Shown: in pieces, positions 593 to 14,971 of the stretch
Position numbering within the stretch: position 1 is the stretch's first letter
How the letters are laid out: every line of letters starts with the position of its first letter
DNA from: a virus
DNA: 20,590 bases
Direction: 5' to 3' (one strand)
IMG/VR virus record: IMGVR_UViG_3300017605_000518
Span: 1-20,590 of that record
The notes under the pieces: generated by a model
Seen by the model: only the letters and a program-made list of their open reading frames with translations
What the model was told of the DNA's origin: nothing
The model's database searches: none
Program-made: the position numbers and the translations under genes

Positions 593-2246
593 CCAGAGAC
601 GTGCGGCTAGTAGACTAGCCCGCACTGCTCAGGTCAGAGAGTTCCTGTCGAGTATGGGCGAAAGCACTAACGATATGGAGGCAATCCGTATGGTGCTGCG
701 CGAGAAGTGTCGCACGGACTTCTGGTTTTTCCAGTGTCGCGTTTATGGGAACGCGGACACTATGACTCCGTTACATATGGAGTTTACGGAGAGGTATCAG
801 AAAAGGCACAATAAGAGATTTTCGATTTGGTTAATGCCTCGTTCTCATTTGAAGACGAGTTGCATTACAGAAGCCGGCACACTATGGGAATTGATTGTAG
901 ATCCGCATGAGCGGCATCTAATCATCAATGCCAAGCTAGAGAATGCAATTGACATTCTCGCTAACATTCGCTCGTGCGTGGAGACTAATGAAGTCTTCCG
1001 TTGGCTGTTCCCGGAGTATTGTCCTGACCTTGCTCCAAAGTCTTTGAAGGATCGTTGTAAGTGGCTAACACATAGGCTCGACTTCCCTTGCAGTAAGTAT
1101 GCTGGAAAGAAGGAAGGGAACATTGAGGTTATGTCAGTCACGGCTTCGCTTGTGTCGAAGCACTATGACAGGATGAAGTTTGATGATCCTGTTAACGATG
1201 ACAACACCACGACGAGAGAATACCGAGACAAGGTTCATCGCTGGTATAAGAATGCCTTGCAGTTGCGTCACGACGCCAATAGCAAAATCACGATTATTGG
1301 AACGCGGTGGCACTTCGACGATCTATATAGTCGGCTTATCGAGGCCGAGTTTGGTCGCCGCAAGCGTCTAATCCAGCTTAGTGAAAAGGTTGTTCCTCGT
1401 TACTGGATCTATCTGCGGCAGGTAGTTGAGAAGGTAGAATCCGGTGGCGAGACAATCGCAGGATATGAGAACGTTCAGCCTATTTGGCCTGAGCGTTTCA
1501 AGAAAGACGACATTGAGGAAATCCGAACTGAGAATGGTTCGTATATTTTCTCATGTCAATACATGAATAACCCGGTGCCTGAGGAAGATGCGATCTTCAA
1601 ATTCTCAGACATCAATCCGATTGATGAAATTGATATTCCAGAAACGGTTGTCAATTTCATGGCGTGCGACTTGGCAGTTGAGGAAACTGAGCAAGGAGAC
1701 TGGTGGGTCATTACAGTAGCTTCGTTTGACCATCTAGGACGCATGTTCGTGCGTCAGGTAGTGCGCGACAAGCTACTCACTTCCTCATTCCTGACGCACG
1801 TTGCTGCGCTACAGCAGAAATGGAAGTGTGTAAAGGTTTCAGTAGAGTCTACAGCATTCCAGAAGACTCTAAACAAGACATACAGAGAATGGTGTGTCAA
1901 GAATCATATTAGTGTGCCATGGGTAGAGGTAGATAGAGGACGATCTAGCAAGAAGAAGCGTATTCTAGCACTACAACCGCGCGTGGAACGTGGAGATTTC
2001 TTCATCGAGGAGCATATTCAAAACTATGAATATATCATTGATGAGATGGTCACTTATCCACGCTCTACCTACGACGATATTCTTGACACTCTAGCGGATT
2101 TAGAGATGCTTTTCTACGGTGCGCCCGAAGCTATGAAGGAAGTAGGGCCGACCGATACTTGGCAAGCAGTCTATGGAGACGTGAATGACGACGAATCAGA
2201 TAATGACGAGTCATTTGCTTGCGACTTCATAGGTAATCTGACATGA
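573..2246 (+). CDS. Terminase large subunit (ATPase-nuclease)
   Basis: Motor that pumps DNA into the prohead and cuts it. Residue numbers count from a possible TTG start at 555. The ATPase half shows a Walker A-like MPRSHLKTS (94-102), a Walker B-like DRMKFDDPV (205-213) and the coupling motif IIGTRWHFDDL (247-257). The RNase H-like nuclease half shows three acidic sites: D372 in MACDLAV, E431 in VSVESTAFQ and the D507/D508/D511 cluster in YDDILDTLAD. The length of about 560 residues is normal for the family. The Walker A lacks the usual glycine (SHLKT instead of G-x-GKT/S), a variant worth noting. The start is uncertain: ATG 573 has no good ribosome site, while TTG 555 has AAGGAG only 3 bases away. 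Either start overlaps the small terminase. The stop TGA overlaps the portal ATG as ATGA. Confidence 0.95.
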   Translation: MKPPTGNQRRAASRLARTAQVREFLSSMGESTNDMEAIRMVLREKCRTDFWFFQCRVYGNADTMTPLHMEFTERYQKRHNKRFSIWLMPRSHLKTSCITEAGTLWELIVDPHERHLIINAKLENAIDILANIRSCVETNEVFRWLFPEYCPDLAPKSLKDRCKWLTHRLDFPCSKYAGKKEGNIEVMSVTASLVSKHYDRMKFDDPVNDDNTTTREYRDKVHRWYKNALQLRHDANSKITIIGTRWHFDDLYSRLIEAEFGRRKRLIQLSEKVVPRYWIYLRQVVEKVESGGETIAGYENVQPIWPERFKKDDIEEIRTENGSYIFSCQYMNNPVPEEDAIFKFSDINPIDEIDIPETVVNFMACDLAVEETEQGDWWVITVASFDHLGRMFVRQVVRDKLLTSSFLTHVAALQQKWKCVKVSVESTAFQKTLNKTYREWCVKNHISVPWVEVDRGRSSKKKRILALQPRVERGDFFIEEHIQNYEYIIDEMVTYPRSTYDDILDTLADLEMLFYGAPEAMKEVGPTDTWQAVYGDVNDDESDNDESFACDFIGNLT

Positions 2247-5599: not shown

Positions 5600-6622
5600 A
5601 TGGCAGTTTCAGAGACTACCCTCACGACAACCACGCTTCAACTTGTTCGCAAGAGGATGGCCGATAACATTTTCAAGGCTAATCCGCTTGCTGCTTGGTT
5701 GTTGATGAAGGGCCGCGTAAAGACGGAAAGTGGAGGTAAGCGCATCGACGAACCGTTGATGTATGCTACCAATAGCACGGTTCAAGCCTACAAGGGCTAT
5801 GACCGCTTGAATGTCTTCCCGACGGAAGAACTCACGTTGGCTCAGTATGGTTGGCGTCAAGCCGCTGCGAGCATTTCGTTGAGCGGACTTGAAGAATTGC
5901 AGAACTCCGGTGAGGCTGCTGTCTTCAATATGCTCAAGGCAAAGATTAAGGTTGCAGAGATGTCTTTGCAACAGTGGCTTGCTGAAAAGCTGCTTGCTAA
6001 CGCTACCACGAAAGATCCGATTCGTGACTTCCTTGGGCTCGACGAGCTTATCGAAGACCTTGCTGGTGCTACTCAAGGCACCGTTGGTGGTATCGACCGT
6101 GTTATCGAAACGTGGTGGAGGAACTACTACGCTGATAAGTCCGCCGGAACTCTTGGTGCCAGCACTAGCTTGCTGACCAAGTATCTTGGCGAGACTTACT
6201 TGGCTGTTAGTAAGGGCCTCACGCAGCCTGACTTGATCCTTACGGATCAGTTCATGTTCCAGCGTTACGAAGACGACAACCGCGCTTATTTGCGCCTCAT
6301 GGATACGAAGCTGATGGAAGTCGGCTTTACTAACATGAAGTTCAAGGGCGCCACTATGATGTGGGATGAGAACATTCAGTCTGGCACTAACATTACTGGT
6401 GGTGCGGGAACTCCCGGCACTAGTGCTGCTGGTGTTGACCATCTGTTCTACTTCATCAATAGTGAGTATATTGGCGTTACCCTGCATGCTCGTCGTAACT
6501 TTGTGATGACTCCTTTCGTTACTCCTTACGATCAAGACGCACAGGTCGCGCAGATCCTTCTGGCCGGCAATAGCACTCTGTGCAATAGCCGTTTCCAGGG
6601 CGTCATCAAGGTAAGGGAGTGA
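5600..6622 (+). CDS. Major capsid protein (HK97 fold)
   Basis: Builds the icosahedral shell. The 340-residue length, the position after the scaffold and the family-like blocks support the call: an N-terminal helix with LVRKRMADNIFKANPLAAWL, KGYDRLNVFPTEELTLAQYGW (a spine/E-loop-like region), the central helix LKAKIKVAEMSLQQWLAEKL, PDLILTDQFMFQRYE, FKGATMMWDE, and a C-terminal strand block ARRNFVMTPFVTPYDQDAQV. No N-terminal processed delta domain is obvious, consistent with a separate scaffold. AAGGG at 5587-5591 lies 8 bases before the ATG. Codon use differs from its neighbours: after codon 4 the gene contains no CTA, TTA or TCA codon, although these are common in adjacent genes. This fits selection for high expression and creates a full-length open antisense frame. 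Confidence 0.93.
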   Translation: MAVSETTLTTTTLQLVRKRMADNIFKANPLAAWLLMKGRVKTESGGKRIDEPLMYATNSTVQAYKGYDRLNVFPTEELTLAQYGWRQAAASISLSGLEELQNSGEAAVFNMLKAKIKVAEMSLQQWLAEKLLANATTKDPIRDFLGLDELIEDLAGATQGTVGGIDRVIETWWRNYYADKSAGTLGASTSLLTKYLGETYLAVSKGLTQPDLILTDQFMFQRYEDDNRAYLRLMDTKLMEVGFTNMKFKGATMMWDENIQSGTNITGGAGTPGTSAAGVDHLFYFINSEYIGVTLHARRNFVMTPFVTPYDQDAQVAQILLAGNSTLCNSRFQGVIKVRE

Positions 6623-7434: not shown

Positions 7435-7889
7435 ACATCGGAATTAAGTCTAAGACGTTCAATGCTCTAGGAACTCCTGACGTAAGTCCGGGTGTTCTTA
7501 TTTCAACAGCACTAGAGCCTAGAGCTAGAATTATCGGCATCATTGCGTCTGTTACTGGTGTTGCTGATAGTGCTGCATGGGCCTTGTTTGCATCAGTTGG
7601 CGGCGTAGATACTCAGGTTGCTAACTGTAACATAAGTGCTTTGACAGCTAACACTGCTCGTGGTTGGTGGGCTGGTATCTCAGGCAGGTATAACGATAAC
7701 ATTATTCTGCAAGCTGCTGCCGCTAATTCACAGCAAGGATTTTGGCCTTTTACTAGCACTGACCAATGGGTAGATATCACCGCTGGTGCTACTTACCAGT
7801 TGAAGTTGCTAATTGACACTAACGTGGCTGGCAATGTGATTGTGTTCTACACAGTTGATCCGCCTACTCAATGGGGAGACTCTACCTAA
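7431..7889 (+). CDS. Hypothetical beta-rich structural protein
   Basis: Not recognised. The 152-residue protein is rich in Ala, Gly, Thr, Val and aromatic residues, with alternating hydrophobic stretches such as RARIIGIIASVTGVAD, WALFASVGGVDTQVANC, NDNIILQAAAA and ATYQLKLLIDT, suggesting a beta sandwich. The C-terminus VIVFYTVDPPTQWG ends in a strand and a short tail. It has one cysteine and no signal peptide. AAAGG (7417-7421) lies 9 bases upstream of the ATG, and the ATG overlaps the preceding stop. The position between decoration and neck genes fits a head fibre, a second decoration protein or a minor capsid component, but nothing in the sequence decides between these. Confidence 0.7.
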   Translation: MNIGIKSKTFNALGTPDVSPGVLISTALEPRARIIGIIASVTGVADSAAWALFASVGGVDTQVANCNISALTANTARGWWAGISGRYNDNIILQAAAANSQQGFWPFTSTDQWVDITAGATYQLKLLIDTNVAGNVIVFYTVDPPTQWGDST

Positions 7890-8149
7890 TGGCAACTCAA
7901 CTAAACTACGCTGCTGATATGGGAATGGTTGAACGTGCACCATTCTCTGTTAAGGTAGATCCTAACAAGCCTCCTGGCGATAGGTTTAAGGACTACATTC
8001 CTAGGACTCCACAAGCCAAGACAAAGGCGGATGACTCGATTCAGCGTAAGACTTTCATGCGCGCTCCTGTTGCACGCTATACGGAAGACTACGTTAGCGG
8101 CCCTGATTCAGCAGTAAGGCGCGGTAATGAAAAGCAACGTATTGTCTAG
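7889..8149 (+). CDS. Hypothetical protein, ends at an in-frame amber codon
   Basis: Not recognised. An 86-residue product, hydrophilic and Pro/Lys/Arg-rich, runs from MATQLNYAADMGM to NEKQRIV and stops at TAG (8147-8149). I chose ATG 7889, which overlaps the previous stop as TAATG and has GGAG (7875-7878) 10 bases upstream. An in-frame ATG at 7871 is possible but has no better site. The TAG is the only one of its kind here, since every other gene complete in the window ends in TAA or TGA. The same frame continues for 66 further codons to a TAA at 8348-8350, so this is probably the N-terminal part of a 153-residue protein. The location between head and neck genes suggests a structural or connector role, without direct proof. 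Confidence 0.65.
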   Translation: MATQLNYAADMGMVERAPFSVKVDPNKPPGDRFKDYIPRTPQAKTKADDSIQRKTFMRAPVARYTEDYVSGPDSAVRRGNEKQRIV

Positions 8150-8350
8150 CTTGCTAAGGAAATATGGGAAGGCGAGTCTGGTAAGCGAAAGCTGTGGGCA
8201 CAGTCTAAGACAGTCGTTGAGAACGCTACAGAAGATAGCGAAGATACAACGGTTGCTAAGGCACGAAAGGTTCTTGCGCGACATGCTCCGCTTACTAAGC
8301 AAGAGTGTCTAGATAAGGCTGCTACGCAGTTCTATGGCCTGAGAAGTTAA
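8147..8350 (+). other. In-frame extension after the amber codon (readthrough, recoding or mutated gene)
   Basis: After the TAG the frame of the preceding gene stays open through LAKEIWEGESGKRKL, KTVVENATEDSEDTTVAKA and LTKQECLDKAATQFYGLRS to TAA 8348-8350, one base before the next gene's ATG. The segment contains no in-frame ATG, GTG or TTG, so it cannot easily be translated independently. Its Lys/Glu/Ala content looks like the flanking real genes. Without it there would be a gap of about 200 bases, the largest in a window of abutting genes. Three explanations are open: amber suppression or reassignment in the phage or host, leaky readthrough producing two products, or a single C-to-T change (CAG to TAG) or base-call error. 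I cannot decide between them from sequence alone. Confidence 0.65.
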
Positions 8351-8351
8351 C

Positions 8352-10343
8352 ATGGCTGTAAAGAACGTAATTGTCCGACTCGGGCAATCTAACGAGGAAG
8401 GACGAGGAAATAAACTCGACCTTCCTCTTTCGCTTCGTGGACCACAAGCGAATACGTTTATTTTCAACTTTGAGAATAACGCTATGGAGCTTCTCAATGT
8501 TGATGGAGTTGGTCCTAATCTTCCGAATAACACGACAGGACATATCGCAGGTAGATTTGGACCTGAGATGAGTAATGCTGCCGCAGCAGTAGCGGCACTT
8601 GGAGAAATCTACATCTTCAAGTTTGCAGTAGATTCGTCTGTTCTTGGTCCGTCTGCTATTTTTCCAGTATGGAATAGTGAAACTGCCACAGGGCTCTTTC
8701 CTCCATTCATGGTAAGATGGAATGCTTTCAAGGCAGTTATGACTGGCCTTGGCCATACCATCAAGGTTCTGTATGTAGACTGGAAGCAAGGAGACTCGGA
8801 TTGCTTTGTTGAGGGTAATGACCTCGCCTATTATGGGCTATATAAACGATTCATGAAGGAAGTTCGAGCATTTGTGATGCCGAACGATCCACTACCTTGC
8901 CGCTGGGTTTCTAATCTCACGCATCATCTAGTTATCCCTAGTGGTCCTGCTGGCATTTTCCTTGTGCAGCGTGCTAAGAATGTCCGGTCTGCACAACTTC
9001 GTGCAGGATGGGATGATGCAAACTATCGCGTATACGACTCAGATGGCTATTCCTACCTCCCGGACCTTATTCACCTTGACTCCCAAGGAAATATTGATAT
9101 TGGCGTGGCGGAATGGAATGCCTATTCTCTATCCTACAATAACTCAATGGCCCTCGAAGACTACACACTCAAGTCTATCAGAGAGCGACTTGCTGATGAC
9201 TTCGGTATTGACCTCTCCAAGCAGAACAACGTAATTGCTCTTGATAAGAAGATCAATGACGGAATTGCTTGGATTAGTAACCGACGTAAGAACTGGCCGC
9301 ATCTTGAGCGAGATACGTCAATCAATGTAGGCGAGACTACTCCTACACTAGCTGACATCCGCTATGGTGCTGGTATCTTTACTAAGTCTAACAATCAGGT
9401 TCCTTACACCTCGTGGTCAAACACGCCGATTTCACCGCGAGAGATAGTAGACTTGAATGGGCAAGGACGTGAAGGCATTTTGTGCGTGTCTATCTCTAGC
9501 AATACCATGTTGCTCAAGCATGGATTTAGAGGAGACGCACAGGTTGTAGGAACTCTCCTAATTACTACAGGTAATCCTACGATCTTCACAATCAATCTTG
9601 CGACTACGCAAGGTGGCACTTGCCATATCCCAACTAATGTGGCAACATTTGGAGTAGCTATTGCTGGTTCATTGCACGATGGAGCATTGACCTACGATGG
9701 TTACTACTACGCAACGAGAATTGCTGATGACAAGTTCAGTATTCCTGTAAACTCTACTGGACACGTTCTTGTCGCTCTTGGTGTAGCGCAGGTAGCTAGA
9801 GAGTTTAAGGTCGCTCAGGCTTACTTTGAGTTACCTGATGACTTTATCCGTAATAGTGCCTGTCATACGGATGAAGACACTGAGGAGAATACCGTAAGGT
9901 ATATTCATCCTACTCTCTTTGAGCGCGAGATTAGAGCTAGGAAGCTGCATACCTCACTTGATCGGATCTACAGTGTTACTGTTGATCCGCTGAATATCAA
10001 TCCAAAGAAGTATGCGTGGATGTATCCATACTTCCTTGATCGCAGAGTTCTTCACTTTAAGTATTTTGGCGATGCTAAGAAACTTGTCTCTGATGAGGAT
10101 GTGCCAGACGTTCCTCGTAGTGATCGCATCGTCGTTCTGTATGCTGCTGGCTGGTTTGTTGCACAGTGGCAGAAAGACGCTGAGATGATTCCAGTCTATA
10201 GAGACGGAGCACTAGGCGAGCTTGACAGAATGACTAAGGAATATCAGTTGGCAGACGACTTTACTGAGAACTTCCCGAGCAGTGATGATGTTCCAGGTAT
10301 TCCGCACGGTCCTTCTGGTTTCCCTGAGTTTGACGAGCCATGA
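8352..10343 (+). CDS. SGNH/CE6-like esterase fused to a neck (head-tail adaptor-like) protein
   Basis: Two parts are visible in 663 residues. The first (about 1-265) carries the blocks of GQSN-type carbohydrate acetylesterases: VIVRLGQSNEEGRG with candidate nucleophile S13, GRFGPEMSNAA (67-77), DWKQGDSD (143-150, the usual W-x-QGE-SD block with D for E), and PDLIHLDSQGN (237-247) with candidate D238 and H241. Such enzymes remove O-acetyl groups from glycans. The second part begins with ALDKKINDGIAWISNRRKNWPHLER (about 296-320), has a beta-rich insert with DGYYYATRIADDKFSIPV, and ends with WMYPYFLDRRVLHFKYF and EDVPDVPRSDRIVVLYAAG (about 582-600). That layout recalls podovirus neck/adaptor or tail tubular A-like proteins. 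The TAA of the amber frame is one base upstream of the start, and the stop overlaps the tail-nozzle gene as ATGA. The esterase call is the stronger of the two. Confidence 0.75.
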   Translation: MAVKNVIVRLGQSNEEGRGNKLDLPLSLRGPQANTFIFNFENNAMELLNVDGVGPNLPNNTTGHIAGRFGPEMSNAAAAVAALGEIYIFKFAVDSSVLGPSAIFPVWNSETATGLFPPFMVRWNAFKAVMTGLGHTIKVLYVDWKQGDSDCFVEGNDLAYYGLYKRFMKEVRAFVMPNDPLPCRWVSNLTHHLVIPSGPAGIFLVQRAKNVRSAQLRAGWDDANYRVYDSDGYSYLPDLIHLDSQGNIDIGVAEWNAYSLSYNNSMALEDYTLKSIRERLADDFGIDLSKQNNVIALDKKINDGIAWISNRRKNWPHLERDTSINVGETTPTLADIRYGAGIFTKSNNQVPYTSWSNTPISPREIVDLNGQGREGILCVSISSNTMLLKHGFRGDAQVVGTLLITTGNPTIFTINLATTQGGTCHIPTNVATFGVAIAGSLHDGALTYDGYYYATRIADDKFSIPVNSTGHVLVALGVAQVAREFKVAQAYFELPDDFIRNSACHTDEDTEENTVRYIHPTLFEREIRARKLHTSLDRIYSVTVDPLNINPKKYAWMYPYFLDRRVLHFKYFGDAKKLVSDEDVPDVPRSDRIVVLYAAGWFVAQWQKDAEMIPVYRDGALGELDRMTKEYQLADDFTENFPSSDDVPGIPHGPSGFPEFDEP

Positions 10344-13300
10344 AGACTCCAATTGATAGAGGAGGCGCCTTTCGTGGAATGGATAAAACCACGAGGGATA
10401 GTAGGCAGCCATTTAGTAGCCCTAGGTTGCTAGAGAACTTTGGGTTACCTGATGGTCGCTCTAGGAGACGTCGTGGTTACAAGACTGTGCATGAGCCTGT
10501 TAAAACTCAGGCATTGTGCAAGTCGACTCCTGTTAGCTATAGCAAGAAGCTACAGGAAACAAATCACAGTAAGGGAACTACAGCGATTTCGCCTCTTAGT
10601 TACGGCCTTATTCGCTGGCAGACTGACTATCAACTTAGGCGCGCAGAACCTAAGACGATTGAGTTCATGTTTCGTCTTGGAGATAAGGAAGAACTAGTTG
10701 CTAATAACTTCGTTCGAGTAGCTACATATCCAGGTAGTTGGACAAACTACAGTTTCCGTAGTGGAGTCTATCTTTACGATCAGACATTGCTGTCTAACGG
10801 TCATATCTGGAATGATGGTCTTGTTGTTAGCGGTGCCATATTTCCTGGCACTACATGGAACATGACAGCATTGGCATCGCCTACACAATTTGATGTGTTG
10901 CCGACTAATGCCTTGTCATTCTACTTTGACTCTAACAATCTTTATGTTAGCTTTGGATTGGTTGAGTCTACGGGAGCGAATACTGGTAGATACTGGCAAG
11001 GTTTCATGCTTCATGCGTTGGGAACCTACGTTGCTGGAACAAACTACCATGTAGCTCTTACGTATGATCCTGCTGCTGGCGCTGGTCCTGGTAGATTCAT
11101 TCTCTACGTGAATGGAGCTGCCTCTACTTCTTTTGACATTCCGGTTACTGTTGAGACGTTTAAGTTTGTTGGCGAGTATGACGTCATCAATGGAGTTACA
11201 TACGCTGCCGGTCAAAAGAGAGATATTGTTCTCTTGAATGAATGCACTGCTCGTGCTTCTTACTCATCTTCGTGTAAGATTCGCGGAGATATGCACGGGC
11301 ATCAGACATTCTTTCATGATTACTCATTTATTCCTAGCGCGCAGCAGATCAATACATGGGCTCTTTCTCCTCCTCGTGGCACTGCCATGTGGGATCTTCG
11401 TATCTGGAATGAGGTCCGCTCGGCTGGTAATGTTCTAGCTAATGCTAAAAAGCGTATCCTTGATACTGGCACAGCTAACCTTAAAGGAAACTGGTTCCTA
11501 AATGAAGGCGGCCCAATTTGTAGTAATCACGTCACTGGGAGAGAACGGCACTACTGCACTGTGCATCATGGTTATCCTGGTTATGTTACTGAGGCTGGTT
11601 TGCTTAGTGGCCAAGGTATCAAACTTGGAGAAGGACAACACCTAATCAAGAGTTTCGGAAGGGACGATAGACACTTTGGTAGTGGTCTTGCTGCTAAGTT
11701 GTGCAATATCTTCGATGACGATATCGGAGCGGGATATCTAGTCCATAGAGATCAGCATAGCTTTACAGTGCAGATACAGATTCTAGTTCCTGACGCATTT
11801 CAACCTGAGTTGAATGATAAGGGAACAGATCCTCTCACTATGCGCGATCTTGCACTAGTGGAAACACGACGTGCAATGAATACTGGTTGTTCTGCTGACT
11901 ATGATTCGTTGTTAGATGGAACTGCGGAAGCTGGTGCCGCTGCTAGATTCTTTATCGGACATGCTACAGATCCGGTTCCCGGACCTGATATCCAGCAACA
12001 CCTTCGCGCATATGACCAAACTCTTTGGTCTATTGAAGGAGTCCAACTTAAGACATACACAGCCACTAGCTCTCCTACTAATGAGGCCGAACGTCGTAGG
12101 ATTCCAGTAGCTCGCGGAGTTCTAGCGCCTGATGGCAGAGTGATCTTTGAGCTATTTAAGTCTCAGACTGGCGGGTTGCAACCTAAGTATTGTAGGCTGC
12201 GCTCTGCTTCATCCCTTGTGGTTGGGAACGTCTACACCCTTACGTTTGTTCAACGAGTGAACTACGTATATACCGGAGGCACCAATACTATGGATGCTTC
12301 TGGTTGGGTAATGGAAATCTGGATCGAGAATGTTACGGCTGGAACTCCTCCTGCTTTGAGTTCTAGTTTTACTTTTGCGGCGGGCTCTATCATTACTACA
12401 GGAGCACTGGCGCATGAGCAAGACTATGATATCAGTATTGGAGCTTCTTATGTTAATGATGGCTGGGATCATTCCATTAACATGCCGTTTCCTAATGGCC
12501 CTGTAGCTACTCCAAAGTCTTCTTTCCTTAAAGGTGGTGGCGCTATTAGAGCGGATCATGGACCTTGGCCAGTGCAACAAAGGTTCATGTCTCCGTATCA
12601 AGATCAGCCAGGGAACTTTACTGTCGGTATGTTCCGTATGTGGTCAATCTCTCTAAGTAATACAGAGATTGCCAGAGTTGGACATAGTAAGTTGGTAGGA
12701 AGTGATCGTAGTTCTGATCTTCTTATCAATCTTGAGTTCTCTGAGAAGACTGGCGTAGAGATCCCTAACAAGTCTATCTATCCTGATACTTTCCGTCTCG
12801 GCTATAAGGGTTGGGGAATGCCTCAGTCCTATAGAAACTTCATCTATCAGACTATCAACCTCAATGCGTATCTTAAGAAGGAGTTGTTTGAAGGCACTTG
12901 GGCTTATGAGGATTGTCTTGGCTATATGCCTATTACTGATCCGACTTACGATTCCGGTCAGAGATACACGCGCGTTAACGGACTTGCAGCTTTCAAGGCA
13001 TCGTTTGGTCAGCAATACGGAACTCTCGCTGTATATGGCGATGCTATTGCTTTTGATGAGTCCGTTACAGGGACATACCTTCCTCTACATTTGGCTAACC
13101 ACGGCCTTATGTCTGAACTTGTGCCAGGTCTTAACTGGAATCATACAATTGTCGGAGATAGGACGATCCTTACTAGTCCTAATGCGTTGCCAAAAGTCTT
13201 CGACGGCAAGTCTATCAATACAGCAGGATTTAGAAAATGGAATGGTGGAACTCCTGTATTGTATGAGACAGCGGCAGTTCCTGGGGCGCTAGTCAATGGC

Positions 13301-14971
13301 TGGTATGGAGTCGTCGTGGTTTACTTCCAAGAAAAGAACGGGACATACATTGTATCTCCTGTAGCTACTTGCGAAGTATTTAGCACGAATGCCATTGGAT
13401 TGTTCATGGTGCCTCAGCATCCTGACAATCGCGTAACTCTCATCGAGGTATACCGGACCTTACCACAAGCAACAGAATCACTAGCTAAGTCTGCTCCTCT
13501 ATTCAAGACTAGAATGGGAGCTGGTAGCACTGTAACTGTTGGAGTTGGTGGAGGTAACTGTTTCTGCGAATCTATCACTATTGCAGAGGCTGACGCGAAT
13601 CTGCCAAACGTAGTGCTGGATCGTAACGTTACAGAGATGCCGGTATGCGCATACGCCGCTTCACTAAATGACAGACTCTATCTGGTGGGCGATGTCCTTA
13701 ACCCTGATATTGTATACTTTAGCGATCCTGGCAATCCTGAGCGCATTGACATTATCGCTAATAGTCTCAAGATCCCGCAAGGAAGCGGAGATTTCCCAAC
13801 AGGAATTATCGCAGCCTTTGAAGCGATCTTCATTTTTAAGCCGAATGCTATCTGGCGCCTTGATGACGTTGGTGGGAACAGGCATCAATTTACTAGGATG
13901 GCTAGTGTTGGCGCTGTTAGCGATCGCTCTATTCAGCTAATCACAGATCCGGATACAGGAAGAGAGTCTATCTTCTTCTGGTCTCAGCATGGCCCGTATA
14001 AGCTAGACACTAGCGGAGTTCAGTATCTTGGGTATCCTATCGAGGAATCTAAGTATGCTGGCGATGGATTGCCTGAGTATAACTGGCTGAATCCTTCATC
14101 CGTCGTGGTTGGGCACGATATTGGACGTCGAGAAATCATTTGTTTCTATACTCCTAAGAGAACAGACGCTAATGGTGTAACTACTCAGCTTGATAGAAAT
14201 GGAGAAGCCTTTGTATACAACTACAGAGTGAATGGTTGGTATAGATACACAGGGACAATTTGCACAAATGCATTGTCTCTTGTGTATGGGACCAGTTCTA
14301 TCTTTGTAGACAGTGTGACGAATAGACTTCAAGGTTTTGTCTACAAGCTTGTTGTCGGAGGAGAGAATGGAAGACTCTACTATTGGGGAGAGAGTAAGAC
14401 AGACGGTATCCCAACAGGACTAGCTCTTGCTAATCCATATAGTCTGGCTATTAACTCTCAGTATGAGTATAAGCCAGTTGGATTTGATGCATCTAAAGAC
14501 TACATTGGTCTTTGGGTAACCATTGTCAATACAGATGGGAGATGGTTCTCGGCTCCAATTACCTCCTATGATGCAACACTGGTGTTTGTGCATGTAGATG
14601 AGACATGGACAGATACTCAGAAGACGTTCACTGTTACACAGGACTGTAAGTTGTATTTCGGCCAAGTTCCTGCTATGGTGGAATTGGCGTGGGATCAACT
14701 AGAAGTTTCATTCTGGGATAAGAAGCTTCAAGAGTTTATCACTTGGCATGATACGCTATTTAAGTATCGAATCGGATTCAATAACGTTGACATTCCTCTA
14801 GCTGATAGCTGGTTGGATATCACAGATTCTGATAGTCAACGTAAGAGAACTCAGGTGAATAGAGCTTGCGAGACAGTGAAGCTACAACTGGCCTCTTCTG
14901 AACTTGACGCTACCTTTGACGCTATTGTGTATAACGTGGCTCCAACTAAGGGAGCTAGTCTAGAGCAATGA
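10340..14971 (+). CDS. Tail nozzle/stem protein with LamG-like inserts
   Basis: A 1543-residue tail protein. The N-terminus has GGAFRGMDKTTRD, LLENFGLPDGRSRRRRGYKTV (about 30-50), the opening of podovirus stem/nozzle (tail tubular B-like) proteins. The last third has their propeller-like blocks: LNDRLYLVGDVLNPDIVYFSD (about 1109-1129), AAFEAIFIFKPNAIWRLDD (about 1157-1175) and FTRMASVGAVSDRSIQLI. Between them lie about 800 residues not expected in a minimal nozzle. They contain concanavalin/LamG-like signatures: YHVALTYDP (236-244), FILYVNG (about 252-258), DLRIWNEVRSAGN (352-364), WFLNEGG (385-391), and a second set with MFRMWSISLSNTEIA (764-778) and LINLEFSEKTG. LamG folds bind glycans, so host-surface binding is likely. 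The start overlaps the upstream stop by 4 bases. There is no signal peptide or membrane segment. Confidence 0.82.
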   Translation: MKTPIDRGGAFRGMDKTTRDSRQPFSSPRLLENFGLPDGRSRRRRGYKTVHEPVKTQALCKSTPVSYSKKLQETNHSKGTTAISPLSYGLIRWQTDYQLRRAEPKTIEFMFRLGDKEELVANNFVRVATYPGSWTNYSFRSGVYLYDQTLLSNGHIWNDGLVVSGAIFPGTTWNMTALASPTQFDVLPTNALSFYFDSNNLYVSFGLVESTGANTGRYWQGFMLHALGTYVAGTNYHVALTYDPAAGAGPGRFILYVNGAASTSFDIPVTVETFKFVGEYDVINGVTYAAGQKRDIVLLNECTARASYSSSCKIRGDMHGHQTFFHDYSFIPSAQQINTWALSPPRGTAMWDLRIWNEVRSAGNVLANAKKRILDTGTANLKGNWFLNEGGPICSNHVTGRERHYCTVHHGYPGYVTEAGLLSGQGIKLGEGQHLIKSFGRDDRHFGSGLAAKLCNIFDDDIGAGYLVHRDQHSFTVQIQILVPDAFQPELNDKGTDPLTMRDLALVETRRAMNTGCSADYDSLLDGTAEAGAAARFFIGHATDPVPGPDIQQHLRAYDQTLWSIEGVQLKTYTATSSPTNEAERRRIPVARGVLAPDGRVIFELFKSQTGGLQPKYCRLRSASSLVVGNVYTLTFVQRVNYVYTGGTNTMDASGWVMEIWIENVTAGTPPALSSSFTFAAGSIITTGALAHEQDYDISIGASYVNDGWDHSINMPFPNGPVATPKSSFLKGGGAIRADHGPWPVQQRFMSPYQDQPGNFTVGMFRMWSISLSNTEIARVGHSKLVGSDRSSDLLINLEFSEKTGVEIPNKSIYPDTFRLGYKGWGMPQSYRNFIYQTINLNAYLKKELFEGTWAYEDCLGYMPITDPTYDSGQRYTRVNGLAAFKASFGQQYGTLAVYGDAIAFDESVTGTYLPLHLANHGLMSELVPGLNWNHTIVGDRTILTSPNALPKVFDGKSINTAGFRKWNGGTPVLYETAAVPGALVNGWYGVVVVYFQEKNGTYIVSPVATCEVFSTNAIGLFMVPQHPDNRVTLIEVYRTLPQATESLAKSAPLFKTRMGAGSTVTVGVGGGNCFCESITIAEADANLPNVVLDRNVTEMPVCAYAASLNDRLYLVGDVLNPDIVYFSDPGNPERIDIIANSLKIPQGSGDFPTGIIAAFEAIFIFKPNAIWRLDDVGGNRHQFTRMASVGAVSDRSIQLITDPDTGRESIFFWSQHGPYKLDTSGVQYLGYPIEESKYAGDGLPEYNWLNPSSVVVGHDIGRREIICFYTPKRTDANGVTTQLDRNGEAFVYNYRVNGWYRYTGTICTNALSLVYGTSSIFVDSVTNRLQGFVYKLVVGGENGRLYYWGESKTDGIPTGLALANPYSLAINSQYEYKPVGFDASKDYIGLWVTIVNTDGRWFSAPITSYDATLVFVHVDETWTDTQKTFTVTQDCKLYFGQVPAMVELAWDQLEVSFWDKKLQEFITWHDTLFKYRIGFNNVDIPLADSWLDITDSDSQRKRTQVNRACETVKLQLASSELDATFDAIVYNVAPTKGASLEQ

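Follow-up and report, generated by a model that had tools for sequence, protein, structure and literature searches.

In an uncultured tailed phage, a single in-frame amber codon (TAG, 8147-8149) splits one gene of the structural operon, hereafter gene X (7889-8350, plus strand). Its presence is best explained by one base change that turned a sense codon into TAG, either as a real nonsense allele in the phage or as an error in the metagenome consensus. This reading, which the original prediction had named as a fallback, is given a probability of about three in four, its two versions carrying about equal weight.

The phage and its relatives

The window analysed here is the complete viral record IMGVR_UViG_3300017605_000518 (20,590 bases), a linear fragment of the phage genome in which terminase, portal, presumed scaffold, capsid and small structural genes are followed by gene X and then by large proteins presumed to form the tail. 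The phage was placed by its major capsid protein (MCP; 5600-6622, plus strand; phrog_9953, E=3.5e-60), which is 29-33% identical to those of Bradyrhizobium, Stenotrophomonas and Myxococcus phages. Its closest relatives were found with the terminase large subunit (TerL; 600-2246, plus strand; phrog_38) and are the contigs L094, L095 and L090, with TerL identities of 70%, 69% and 68%, respectively; a further contig, L002, shares 41%. The contigs L090, L094 and L095 stop short of the gene X position, and searches of genome contigs with the capsid and terminase sequences found no prophage relatives. The lineage formed by the window and these four contigs is poorly sampled, its terminase and capsid relatives in IMG/VR amounting to a few short contigs.

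Gene X is one coding unit interrupted by TAG

The frame of gene X comprises 153 codons. Its start codon (ATG 7889) overlaps the stop of the preceding gene (TAATG) and is served by the strong Shine-Dalgarno (SD) sequence GGGGAG (-8.6 kcal/mol). The first half (7889-8146, plus strand) has 86 codons, and the second half (8150-8350, plus strand) has 66 codons followed by TAA (8348-8350), one base ahead of the next ATG at 8352. This layout agrees with the one originally predicted, as does the lack of any in-frame ATG, GTG or TTG in the second half, where the only non-canonical start candidates are ATA 8162, CTG 8192 and CTG 8339.

Both halves have the codon usage of genuine genes, with in-frame scores of +37.8 bits for the first and +25.7 bits for the second, to be compared with a mean of 21.9 (sd 8.1) for 66-codon stretches of other genes and with negative averages for wrong frames. 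The second half is a true part of a gene, and the scores support the proposal of one gene divided by an amber codon with a second half unable to start on its own. The competing 61-codon frame in the +1 phase (8127-8312, plus strand), suspected from the outset of being a shadow, behaves as one, scoring -24.7 bits over 8151-8348, a value typical of wrong frames.

This arrangement is singular in the window. Among its 1,084 forward-strand stops, 31 precede at least 66 open codons, and TAG 8147 alone is followed by 30 or more codons that lack a start and have coding composition. A similar scan of 95 loci (1.2 Mb) returned two sense-strand cases, gene X and one at position 3908 of L026; the latter, where the frame directly follows a portal gene, lacks the look of a split gene. 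Minus-strand matches of the codon-usage scan were set aside as shadows, the structural modules being encoded on the plus strand, and a homology-based count of interrupted genes was left out, swamped as it was by antisense shadow frames. The rest of the contig contains no other broken gene, so that its general sequence quality looks good.

A probable base change or consensus error

According to the preferred reading, gene X would be a normal gene of 153 codons within the structural operon, coding for a small protein, mostly disordered and helical, without known relatives. Codon 87 would have passed from sense to TAG either because the sequenced phage population acquired one substitution or because the metagenome consensus was miscalled, and translation would end there, giving an 86-residue product and releasing the second half only by background leakage. 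Such a change is easy, given that 16% of the codons of the genome (1,089 of 6,703) are one substitution away from TAG. We infer that it was recent, or else not real, since the second half shows no visible decay. Single amber alleles and consensus errors in metagenome-assembled phage genes present the same picture of a lone in-frame stop in an intact frame and nothing else that points to recoding, and no feature was found in which gene X differs from them.

Several points weigh against this reading. The good general quality of the contig is one, and another is that the originally proposed search for a homologue bearing a sense codon at the site turned up none. Moreover, the phage should suffer from a true nonsense allele if it needs the protein, and expression of the next gene might also fall if translation of that gene is coupled to the end of gene X, as its weak SD could allow.

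Possible readthrough of the amber codon

Programmed or leaky readthrough, by which the TAG would yield a short (86 residues) and a long (153 residues) form of one structural protein, is unlikely. What speaks for it is the second half itself, which is intact, coding, in phase with the first and devoid of a start of its own, as expected of programmed readthrough, together with the position of gene X among virion genes. A stimulatory context, also to be expected, is lacking: the folding energy of the 101 bases after TAG is -17.9 kcal/mol, no better than that of shuffled sequences (mean -18.7; z=0.32), which reveals no RNA structure downstream, and the 3' context, CTTGCT, is T-rich. Regulated production of the 86- and 153-residue forms, as had been suggested, gained no support. 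E. coli does read amber codons at some level, inserting Tyr, Gln or Lys, but its readthrough benefits from many G and few T after the stop, with TAG less leaky than TGA (PMC11126739). The break also falls inside a predicted helix rather than between two domains, a placement of low-to-moderate confidence, and no homologue of the protein was found that would show conservation of the split arrangement.

Phage Qbeta, an RNA phage, makes its A1 protein from the coat gene by readthrough. The codon concerned is a leaky UGA, read as Trp about once in 15 times (PMC8067240). Like A1, the long form of gene X would be an in-phase extension of a gene located among virion genes; unlike the Qbeta UGA, the codon of gene X is UAG, has nothing remarkable around it, falls within a predicted helix and belongs to a DNA phage. 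That a tailed DNA phage should make two forms through a single dedicated UAG without a structural stimulator, perhaps depending on a host suppressor, is quite improbable. Readthrough in bacteria need not show an obvious signal, and for this reason a minor share of the probability is kept for it.

A possible separate start for the second half

The second half is very unlikely to be a gene of its own, translated from a rare start (ATA 8162 or CTG 8192) or through reinitiation downstream of TAG. An AAGGA motif just past TAG could pair at -6.0 kcal/mol upstream of ATA 8162, but it is spaced from this codon by only about 2 bases. The first 14 codons after TAG, which precede CTG 8192, already score 0.42 bits per codon, typical of coding sequence, so that the frame does not begin as late as CTG 8192. 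Every other complete gene of the window (terminase left out) starts at ATG, and the predicted helix would run across the junction of the two halves. As for frameshifting or hopping past TAG, it was rejected for want of a repeat codon or slip site that restores the same frame.

TAG as a stop codon in the lineage

Genetic code 15, in which TAG means glutamine, is used by some crAss-like phages. Reassignment of this kind in the phage or its lineage, one of the possibilities first raised together with amber suppression, is largely refuted and now seems extremely improbable. Two features of the window resemble code 15 phages, namely that a late gene holds TAG in frame and that no gene terminates at TAG: as initially noted, the 16 other genes whose 3' ends are present use TAA (9) or TGA (7) as stops, with no internal stop in any of them. 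TAG terminates 2 of about 14 late genes counted in the relatives, however; at that rate a set of 16 genes would lack TAG stops in about 8% of cases, and its absence from the 16 is weak evidence. Many in-frame TAGs would be expected in the late genes of a table 15 phage, whereas there is a single one here in about 6,850 late-gene codons: a search of the other sense codons of the window, although these belong to late genes, counted TAG in 0 of 6,703, next to 145 CAG and 136 CAA.

No tRNA gene, and hence no suppressor with a CUA anticodon, was found in the window, which is part of an incomplete phage genome, or in the loci of L090, L091, L094, L095 and L002. A suppressor tRNA could lie elsewhere in the phage genome; one is carried by 375 of 715 predicted table 15 phages, about half of them (PMC11210395).

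A lineage with reassigned TAG would also be free of TAG terminators, and genes ending at TAG were found in four relatives, L090, L094, L095 and L002, three of them at 68-70% TerL identity. The TerL gene of L095 ends at TAG with a homologous C-terminus (…CDFIGN, then the stop), two bases before the portal ATG; reading past this TAG gains four codons only, which makes the case inconclusive alone. Stronger cases come from two minus-strand genes, in L090 (1314-2111) and L095 (7064-7870), each with its TAG within or just before a strong terminator hairpin of about -25 kcal/mol, and from L094, where TAG parts two same-frame genes, the second of which begins at an ATG also used by its L090 and L095 counterparts. 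In both contigs the minus-strand gene lies ahead of the packaging genes, at a comparable place. The scaffold gene of L002 ends at TAG as well. Altogether, these stops show that TAG is an ordinary stop codon in this lineage, as expected if gene X carries a nonsense allele or a consensus error.

The product of gene X and its neighbours

When its structure was modelled from the single sequence (mean pLDDT 63), the read-through protein was predicted to be disordered in its first half and to form a helix, residues 72-112, that crosses the TAG position (residue 87); such a helix is weakly suggestive of one continuous protein. Homologues were sought with peptide patterns in viral contigs, and also in phages, plasmids, 88 loci with related capsid genes, the loci of terminase-based relatives and nine whole records; there were none. 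A DNA pattern of the gene with the TAG codon left free had no match, PHROGs, Pfam and Rfam returned nothing, and comparison with solved structures gave only three insignificant matches (E at least 0.23). Lying as it does between the capsid genes and a presumed tail adaptor, gene X may code for a small assembly or virion protein. The p50-type protein of Mx8-like and BUCT555-like phages occupies roughly the corresponding place, upstream of the tail adaptor, but shares no sequence similarity with the product of gene X (profile comparison, hhalign probability 0.1%).

The next gene (8352-10343, plus strand; SD -2.7 kcal/mol), whose translation is possibly coupled to the end of gene X given this weak SD, encodes a protein of 663 residues whose N-terminus carries a SASA-type (sialic acid-specific acetylesterase) domain (PF03629, E=1.2e-07). 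Judged by eye, its C-terminal part resembles a podovirus tail adaptor, and the protein is probably a fusion of adaptor and esterase, which, if true, would place the esterase on the tail. The following protein (10340-14971; 1,543 residues) had no match in phages or Pfam; by eye, its C-terminal third is like head-closure or stabilisation proteins, while its N-terminal part is long and rich in insertions.

Significance for phage recoding

No recoding signal was found, and gene X most likely involves no novel use of the genetic code. Dedicated UAG readthrough in the structural operon of a tailed phage would, if true, add a mode of recoding; to our knowledge, based on the literature searched, it has not been described in this phage group. 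Lone in-frame stops in assembled viral contigs can wrongly pass for recoding, and a cheap test is offered by stop codon use in the nearest relatives, where TAG at terminators and TAG between same-frame genes argue here against reassignment.
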